Positions 33,371 through 34,839 of a stretch of 64,000 nucleotides of DNA are shown here, piece by piece. The notes beneath the pieces were generated by a model. The model searched no databases, was not told the origin of the DNA, and saw only the letters and a program-made list of their open reading frames with translations. The stretch covers positions 4,734,501 through 4,798,500 of the forward strand of contig JAGUCH010000007.1 in assembly GCA_019096065.1 (NCBI GenBank), in the 5' to 3' direction. Both the position numbers and the translations under genes were made by a program. The stretch comes from Paracyclopina nana (taxonomy: Eukaryota > Arthropoda > Copepoda > Cyclopoida > Cyclopettidae). Within the stretch, counting starts at the first letter, position 1, and each line of letters starts with the position of its first letter.

Positions 33371-34384
33371 ATGCCACGGGATAGAGATCGCAAAAAGCGG
33401 AGAGATTCCTCCTCACGTTCCAGATCTCGTTCAAGGGATCGAAATCATCGGTCAAGATCGCGCTCAAGAGATCGAAATAATAAGTCCAGATCGCGTTCAA
33501 GAGACCGAAATAATCGGTCCAGATCGCGTTCAAGGGATCGAAATCATCAACCCAGATTCAGAGAGGGAAAAAATGAAGACTTTCGGTGGCCCAAAGATGG
33601 CTACCGTGAATTGGAAAAGGACGGCTTCAAAAGGCCAAAGCGAGACGACAGAAGCAATGTGGGAGCTGACTTCATGGATCACCGAAGATCGCAAAGAGAA
33701 GAAATATCCGAACGTGGAGCAGCAGAAGTTTGGGGCCATTCTCCGGGTCATTACCAACTTTCAGATTCTGACGATGACAAAAAGAAGGCTGGTTCAGACT
33801 CCGATCATAAAACATCGAAGAAGTCGAAAAAATCAAAAAAGTCGAAGAAATCGAAAAAATCGAAAAAGTCGAAGAAATCGAAAAAGTCGAGAAAGTCTAA
33901 AAGATCCTCGAGCTCCTCTTCAGGCTCCGATTCTGAATGGGAAGAAAAGGAGCTTGTACCGAGGATTGGTACTTCCATTTTGAAGAAGTATGATGACAAA
34001 GAGGACGAGGAGGCTGAAGATATCATAGGGCCACAGTTGCCTTCAAAGGTTGTCTTGACTTATAAGGAAATGGGCACAGCTCTGTTGCCAGGTGAAGGCT
34101 CGGCAATGGCTGCTTATGTGGCTGATGGCAAGAGGATTCCTCGGCGAGGTGAAATTGGACTGACATCAGACGAGATATCCAAGTTTGAAGATGATGGCTG
34201 GGTCATGTCAGGATCCAGGCATCGACGCATGGAAGCTGTGAGGTTGCGAAAGGAGAACCAAATTTACAGTGCTGATGAGAAGCGAGCATTAGCAATGTTC
34301 TCCAAGGAAGAAAGAACCAAGCGAGAGAATAAGATTCTGGGACAATTCAGAGACATGGTCAAAGACAAGCTAAAAAAGTCGTGA
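33371..34384 (+). CDS. NKAP: NKAP (SynMuv/NF-kappa-B-activating protein), intronless
   Basis: NKAP is a nuclear protein associated with splicing and transcriptional repression. A single exon of 337 residues begins at ATG 33371. Residues 1-65 are an RS-type region of repeated RSRSRDRN units. The middle is charged, and a Lys/Ser tract (about residues 152-178) is built from repeated KKSKKS. The C-terminal 100 residues are the highly conserved SynMuv-product domain: [47 protein letters not shown], and [16 protein letters not shown]. Length is shorter than vertebrate NKAP (about 415), as in other invertebrates. Its TGA stop (34382-34384) is followed immediately by the ATG of the HTD2-like gene, with no polyadenylation signal between. 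Identification is firm. Confidence 0.95.
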
Positions 34385-34839
34385 ATGTTCTCTCTTTTAG
34401 GTCATCTTCACATCAGCATGCGGAGTCGAAGCTTCCAGCTGGTAAAAGTGATACAGTATCATGATGTGGCCAAGTATGCTGAATTGACTGGGGATTTCAA
34501 CCCCATACACGCTCAAGGTATTTAAAAAGAAACCAAGAGAGAATAAAAGCAAGCAAAAAGCATGTTGTCATTGTAGAAAGTGGGATCGTGCATGGGACAT
34601 TTTTGCTCGGTTTGATCTCTGGTGTCATGGGGACCAAATGCCCTGGACCCGGCACCAAAGTTCTCGATCTGCAAGCCAAGTTCCCTAAGCCCTGTTCCAT
34701 AAATAGTGAAGTCACCATAGGTGTTCACCTGGAGGAGCTACGTAAAATTTCCACTGCAAACTTTGAAGTGAAATCTGGCAATGATTTGTGCGTTCAAGGC
34801 ACCGCCAAGCTGCTCTTGCCTAAAGACTACTTCACTTAG
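34385..34839 (+). CDS. HTD2: HTD2-like 3-hydroxyacyl-thioester dehydratase (MaoC hot-dog fold)
   Basis: HTD2 catalyses the dehydration step of mitochondrial fatty-acid synthesis, turning 3-hydroxyacyl-ACP into trans-2-enoyl-ACP. Two exons, 34385-34517 and 34577-34839, give 131 residues. The MaoC-type hydratase signature is present: YAELTGDFNPIHA with the catalytic Asp and His, then SGIVHGTFLLGLISGVMGT and the PGPG turn. The first 20 residues (MFSLLGHLHISMRSRS) have Arg and no acid, as in a mitochondrial presequence. ATG 34385 directly follows the NKAP stop; a second in-frame ATG is at 34418. A good acceptor-like TTCTCTCTTTTAG ends at 34400, so the transcript may instead start there by trans-splicing and use 34418. 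In vertebrates HTD2 is also bicistronic, but with RPP14. The 3' end converges on the DUF4789 gene 25 bp away. Confidence 0.88.

Follow-up and report, generated by a model that had tools for sequence, protein, structure and literature searches.

The window analysed here is a stretch of 64,000 nucleotides (contig C7, positions 4734501-4798500) of a 92-Mb genome. Two genes, NKAP and HTD2, lie next to each other on its + strand, with the following parts:

33371..34384, + strand: NKAP coding sequence, one exon, 337 aa, ending ...KLKKS*, stop TGA at 34382-34384; matched in profile and structure-chain searches
34385..34517, + strand: HTD2 coding exon 1, from Met 34385, or from Met 34418 given use of the acceptor described below
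34518..34576, + strand: HTD2 intron, 59 nt
34577..34839, + strand: HTD2 coding exon 2, ending in the stop TAG

NKAP was identified by a profile scan (Nkap_C, E 2.1e-47) and by its match to the human NKAP chain (E 1.1e-54). The downstream reading frame is a single MaoC hot-dog domain (MaoC_dehydratas, E 1.2e-7, profile scan), and HTD2 was the best of its four PDB matches (human HTD2, 3ir3, E 6.8e-16). Six-frame searches of the 92-Mb genome placed NKAP and HTD2 at one position each, and the idea that NKAP is a retrocopy of an intron-bearing gene was rejected on the single NKAP match genome-wide. The divergent gene upstream of NKAP, at a distance of 394 nt, is VPS41; downstream, a DUF4789 gene is convergent with HTD2, the two stop codons lying 25 nt apart. 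Nine residues that human HTD2 carries between NPxH and IVHG are absent here, at the position of the intron (34510-34585). A further gene of the window (9122-10182) presumably resembles arthropod cuticle proteins.

Junction between the two reading frames

Gene models are predictions of a small gene finder, not an annotation; it was trained on the window and the preceding 200 kb. The elements at and around the junction are:

34385..34387, + strand: first in-frame ATG of the HTD2 frame, abutting the NKAP stop in the same frame, with a poor start context
34388..34400, + strand: 3' splice acceptor TTCTCTCTTTTAG, score 6.46; the exon would start at 34401
34418..34420, + strand: Met 34418, the likely HTD2 start given use of the acceptor, with a good start context (4.90)
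33312..33317, + strand: 5' splice donor AAG GTGAAA, cut at 33311/33312, score 5.81 (78th percentile), strongest in 32978-34518 and upstream of the NKAP ATG

The original prediction had the NKAP stop directly against the HTD2 start on the same strand, with no polyadenylation signal between them, and on both counts it agrees with the sequence: TGA 34382-34384 is followed by the in-frame ATG 34385, and no AATAAA lies between the two ORFs. The sole + strand AATAAA in 34300-35900 is at 34542-34547, inside the HTD2 intron; it is not rare in such places (8 of 134 short introns, with a control word in 13 of 134).

The contact of TGA and ATG is weak evidence by itself, because the open HTD2 frame extends only 11 codons upstream of Met 34418 and the context of ATG 34385 is poor. 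That ATG scores 1.05 vs 4.90 for Met 34418, the 5th percentile of predicted + strand starts being 3.88. The two ATGs are in frame with each other and lie 0 and 33 nt from the NKAP stop, and the acceptor ends 17 nt before Met 34418. The start-context score is soft evidence: of the four other starts of the acceptor type described below, three are also low (1.1, 2.52 and 1.79), and LSM8 has 5.0. The residues encoded just before Met 34418, GHLHIS, match QHMHIK of the human protein better than expected (permutation p 0.0016; random p 5e-5); translation may therefore begin further up, whether from ATG 34385 or from an unseen exon joined by splicing to 34401.

The acceptor TTCTCTCTTTTAG, which is followed by GT, stands at the 68th percentile of 247 predicted acceptors and is the best in 33000-34700. 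An acceptor of at least this strength was found within 36 nt of none of the 75 other predicted stops and in 1.8% of random 36-nt windows. The gene finder ended NKAP at 34384 and started HTD2 at 34418 at two of three later settings; it merged the two genes in its first model and at the first of the later settings. The fusion through internal splicing in that first model was rejected, since the conserved NKAP C-terminus would be lost and the pair was separated at two of the three later settings. About 40 nt before the NKAP stop, inside conserved NKAP codons, stands a TGGGA (34338-34342), which we take to be similar to a motif of viral termination-reinitiation sites; it may be there by chance.

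In the 264 kb around the window, predicted acceptors are only about twofold enriched near predicted ATGs. Nine same-strand pairs less than 250 nt apart were counted there at the middle predictor setting, which separates NKAP from HTD2, and among them both partners could be identified for NKAP-HTD2 alone. The remaining pairs consist, by reading of their translations, of transposon-like ORFs, split models or proteins without identity (both translations were inspected for six of the eight, and those of the rest in part). Four of these proteins were scanned, giving one C2H2 zinc finger and three without a family. One locus on the same contig (L024, ~3000-9200; C7, ~4637500-4643700) is an inverted repeat with arms of ~2.96 kb that are 98.9% identical, either a recent duplication or an assembly artefact. 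Each arm carries a predicted tandem pair, 80 nt apart, whose second member is a C2H2 zinc-finger ORF; an acceptor scoring 5.26 lies 3 nt upstream of its start, and the pair is possibly a further splice-type junction.

Recurrence of the layout in the genome

The sample for recurrence consisted of two Rpp14/Pop5-family loci and 17 LSM-family matches, picked blind to their neighbours. The LSM set comprises the 16 genes with a located start; one match (L068) was left out because its start was not found. Four pairs with the layout of NKAP-HTD2 were obtained:

NUS1>LSM8: same strand, gap 51 nt, acceptor 6.67, 6 nt before the ATG
GCFC2>LSM5: same strand, gap 79 nt, acceptor 6.40, 0 nt before the ATG
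RBM26/27-like>LSM10: same strand, gap 140 nt, acceptor 7.14, 0 nt before the ATG
POP5>NDUFAF5: same strand, gap 70 nt with an AATAAA in it, acceptor 5.67, 0 nt before the ATG

GCFC2 and POP5 were matched at E 8e-26 and E 3e-17, and the gene before LSM8 matched the Prenyltransf family and is taken by us to be NUS1. RBM26/27-like is our presumed name for the gene before LSM10, which family scans did not confirm. The names of the individual LSM-family members and of NAA38, DNLZ and NDUFAF5 were likewise assigned by us, on presumed likeness within the matched families. The first ORFs of these pairs hold 8 ATGs each in the parts counted.

A same-strand gene ends at most 260 nt upstream of 4 of the 16 LSM-family genes (LSM8, LSM5, LSM10 and NAA38). 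An acceptor of at least 6.4 lies within 20 nt of the ATG in all three LSM genes whose same-strand neighbour is 51-140 nt upstream. Of the 12 LSM-family genes with no same-strand gene close upstream, one (SNRPB, 5.48) carries an acceptor scoring 5 or more no further than 20 nt from the ATG, and the next best is 3.56. The contrast of 3/3 vs 1/12 gives a hypergeometric p of 0.009, and 3/4 vs 1/12 with NAA38 included gives 0.027. Whether a gene has a close neighbour was judged by the coding score of ORFs on the upstream side only. In the three pairs with an acceptor the upstream ORFs score 26-44, and the one before NAA38 scores 7.4; none exceeds 6.1 among the remaining 12 genes. The value of 6.1 is that of an 84-codon ORF 231 nt before LSM6, which was treated as no neighbour.

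Tight junctions without an acceptor

Four other same-strand junctions are as close as NKAP-HTD2, or nearly so, and have no acceptor above 2.62; their start contexts are 3.13-4.73:

RPP14>ISY1: L051:1384-2578 (C4, ~8458708), same strand, gap 1 nt
STMP1>POP5: L050:1316-3128 (C2, ~8215174), same strand, gap 5 nt
TMEM42-like>NAA38: L064:400-1570 (C4, ~4327894), same strand, gap 1 nt
NAA38>DNLZ: L064:400-1570 (C4, ~4327894), same strand, gap 19 nt

L050 is thus a three-gene same-strand cluster of STMP1-like, POP5 and NDUFAF5 with gaps of 5 and 70 nt, and L064 another of TMEM42-like, NAA38 and DNLZ with gaps of 1 and 19 nt. Family scans matched Isy1 (E 7e-91), zf-DNL (E 4e-27), p14 (E 4e-7) and DUF4535. 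The DUF4535 gene before POP5 is presumably STMP1, and TMEM42-like is our assumed name for the gene before NAA38, which family scans did not confirm.

RPP14 (108 codons with the stop; intron and start follow our own model) and STMP1 (54 codons with the stop) are free of internal ATGs in all frames. ATG-free coding windows in predicted genes number 0 of 2721 at 322 nt and 87 of 3021 at 161 nt. Compared with codon shuffles, the lack of out-of-frame ATGs is not significant (STMP1 p 0.37, RPP14 p 0.17), and the absence of ATGs in the two genes is unusual mainly through missing Met codons. Judged by their sequences, RPP14>ISY1 and STMP1>POP5 look like leaky-scanning dicistronic mRNAs. TMEM42-like>NAA38 and NAA38>DNLZ do not fit leaky scanning; the TMEM42-like ORF has 2 ATGs in its last 190 nt and NAA38 has 5. 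NKAP-HTD2 does not fit this type either, with 19 internal ATGs in NKAP (7 in-frame and 12 out-of-frame), and an mRNA shared by the two ORFs would therefore need reinitiation after 337 codons.

Searches for a leader RNA

Four of the six copepod spliced-leader (SL) sequences of PMC4664967, used as a single query, gave no match in the genome, an empty result that is not proof of absence. A search with the core pattern of copepod SLs returned 28 scattered matches (2 in the backward control), and a pattern of a donor plus an Sm site gave 401 matches (117 in the control). Repeated families of the form AGGTA...ATTTTTGG were considered as SL RNAs and rejected, four families (14 loci) among the matches listed sitting in longer repeats that are transposon-like by reading of the sequence.

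Two tandem arrays of 5S rRNA are present (C1:913544-939931 and C1:1277459-1285895), with units of ~471 nt (two 5S copies) and ~346 nt. No SL genes were seen by eye in the 5S spacers of L002, L003, L004 and part of L006. An Rfam scan of the window and five loci gave 36 matches, all of them 5S rRNA in the loci and none in the window. L034 (C6:6394050) holds a partial, divergent rDNA copy with one base changed in an 18S stretch that we take to be highly conserved. The SL searches are weak in that an unknown leader could not be found reliably by them.

Discussion

What the analysis establishes directly is the DNA sequence, the identity of both genes, the acceptor itself and the fact that this layout recurs at four further pairs. 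On the strength of these features, we tentatively read the locus, at somewhat less than an even chance, as one transcription unit of two cistrons, NKAP and HTD2, with transcription starting upstream of NKAP. Splicing at the 34400 acceptor would free HTD2 from this transcript, the 5' exon of the HTD2 mRNA most likely being a leader from another RNA joined in trans; Met 34418 would serve as its start codon, and NKAP would be read from its own frame. That the TGA touches ATG 34385 would then be incidental. The NKAP 3' end may form through AATAAA 34542, which lies in the HTD2 intron, and in that case the NKAP and HTD2 mRNAs would be mutually exclusive; we regard this as speculation, because 8 of the 134 short introns hold an AATAAA.

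Because the same layout is found at four other pairs, with the acceptor touching the ATG at three of them, one leader RNA is an easier explanation than separate cis arrangements, and gaps of 51-140 nt leave little room for a promoter, a first exon and an intron. Several observations count against release by trans-splicing: no SL RNA was found, no AATAAA precedes the acceptor, a good donor lies upstream of NKAP, the other close pairs in the 264 kb do not have two identified partners, and acceptors are only about twofold enriched near ATGs there. The likeness of GHLHIS to human HTD2 argues against a start at Met 34418. The original prediction had named release by trans-splicing at 34400, with Met 34418 as the start, and termination-reinitiation on one mRNA as the two possible routes. 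For the former, the anatomy of the acceptor and its spacing is there and is repeated at four more pairs, but the weak searches found no SL RNA and cis-splicing is possible; the start at Met 34418 has its context in its favour and the upstream residues against it.

Cis-splicing is, in our estimate, unlikely. An exon upstream of NKAP, ending at donor 33312, would be joined to NKAP or, skipping NKAP, to 34401, or else an unseen exon with a mitochondrial signal would be joined in phase 1 to 34401; in the first case, NKAP and HTD2 would be alternative products of one gene. Donor 33312 could serve 34401 or a 54-nt NKAP leader intron ending at 33365, and its score of 5.81, the strongest in 32978-34518, speaks for such use. 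The homology to human HTD2 starts just past the 34401 boundary, in keeping with a coding phase-1 exon; by our reading, HTD2 has no long mitochondrial signal otherwise. However, the phase-1 frame before donor 33312 stops at TAA 33308-33310, so that this exon cannot supply the missing residues, and the phase-1 candidate exons in 24000-34384 are several, weak and in no case convincing; an upstream mitochondrial-signal exon was rejected on these candidates. Equally good donors are no commoner near ATGs (3 of 74) than in controls (8 of 222), and a separate origin would be required at each of the five pairs.

A promoter for HTD2 inside NKAP, with transcripts starting in the NKAP coding region and the spacing a result of genome compaction, appears quite unlikely. 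Tight packing is tolerated in this genome, convergent predicted gene ends being less than 100 nt apart in 6 of 19 cases and those of HTD2 and its convergent neighbour only 25 nt apart, but such a promoter leaves unaccounted for the acceptor at 34400 and those before the second ATG in the four other pairs. We consider it very unlikely that a single dicistronic mRNA is used on which ribosomes end NKAP at 34384 and restart at ATG 34385 with the product MFSLLGHLHIS..., the second route of the original prediction. The stop and start codons are in contact (TGA-ATG, 34382-34387), a start at 34385 would retain the residues that match human HTD2, and the four tight junctions without an acceptor indicate that such arrangements exist here; as the TMEM42-like and NAA38 ORFs hold ATGs, there may be a way round leaky scanning. 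Against it stand the context of ATG 34385 (1.05 vs 3.13-4.73 at those four junctions), the 337 codons and 19 internal ATGs of NKAP, and the strong acceptor, which would be a coincidence. Reinitiation downstream of a long ORF is uncommon in animals. A limit for reinitiation near 55 codons is given as a prediction cited in PMC4705651, in the part of it available.

Release of HTD2 by trans-splicing, our preferred reading, would be part of a wider picture that is less likely than not: operons throughout this genome, with junctions of two kinds, one resolved by splicing (short gap, acceptor at the next ATG) and one by scan-through (first ORF without ATGs, gap 1-5 nt), and a spliced leader that differs from the known leaders of copepods. 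Known operons contain RNA and mitochondrial housekeeping genes, and in this gene content the clusters here are like the operons of tunicates and the SL1-type operons of C. elegans. A further likeness is that the cistrons stand on one strand with next to nothing between them and that the downstream one has an acceptor (PMC7986045, accessible part). The differences are that no SL RNA was found here and that the host is apparently an arthropod, to judge by the DUF4789 gene and the cuticle-like protein of 9122-10182. The accessible part of PMC7986045 describes tunicate operons that are resolved by trans-splicing and have few or no nucleotides between their cistrons, the median intercistronic distance being 1 bp in Ciona and 31 bp in Oikopleura (poly(A) to trans-splice site, the Oikopleura value under a 60-bp cut-off; these are not directly comparable with the stop-to-start gaps given here). 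According to the same part, SL trans-splicing is known in copepods and amphipods, and operons had not been reported there by 2021. No report of trans-spliced arthropod operons was found among the matches listed in a literature search of partial coverage.

In vertebrates HTD2 is the second ORF of the RPP14 mRNA, as the original prediction had said and as the available part of PMC4705651 agrees. In both, HTD2 follows an RNA-biology gene as the second ORF; the differences are that NKAP is upstream here, that RPP14 is on another contig before ISY1, and that an acceptor stands between the ORFs. As to the suggestion that HTD2 may be repeatedly coupled to RNA-biology genes, in this genome RPP14 lies beside ISY1 at C4:8458708 and HTD2 on C7. 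No special link of HTD2 is needed, since the clusters here consist of RNA and mitochondrial genes in general. The Drosophila dicistronic loci (stoned, snapin, lemming) are similar in host, an arthropod, and in having two ORFs very close together, and RPP14>ISY1 and STMP1>POP5 fit them, unlike NKAP with its 19 internal ATGs followed by a strong acceptor. For stoned and snapin, translation of the second ORF depends on a first ORF without in-frame AUGs (Wall et al., as cited in the accessible part of PMC3372440), and operon-like transcription in Drosophila, without SL, is the subject of a 2007 title in the reference list of that paper.

Should trans-splicing release HTD2 and the second genes of the other pairs, this would be a case of trans-spliced operons in an arthropod. 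Splice-resolved and scan-through junctions would then occur in one genome, allowing a direct test of how the mode of second-cistron expression is chosen, and the gene models of this genome would be likely to fuse neighbours or misplace starts.
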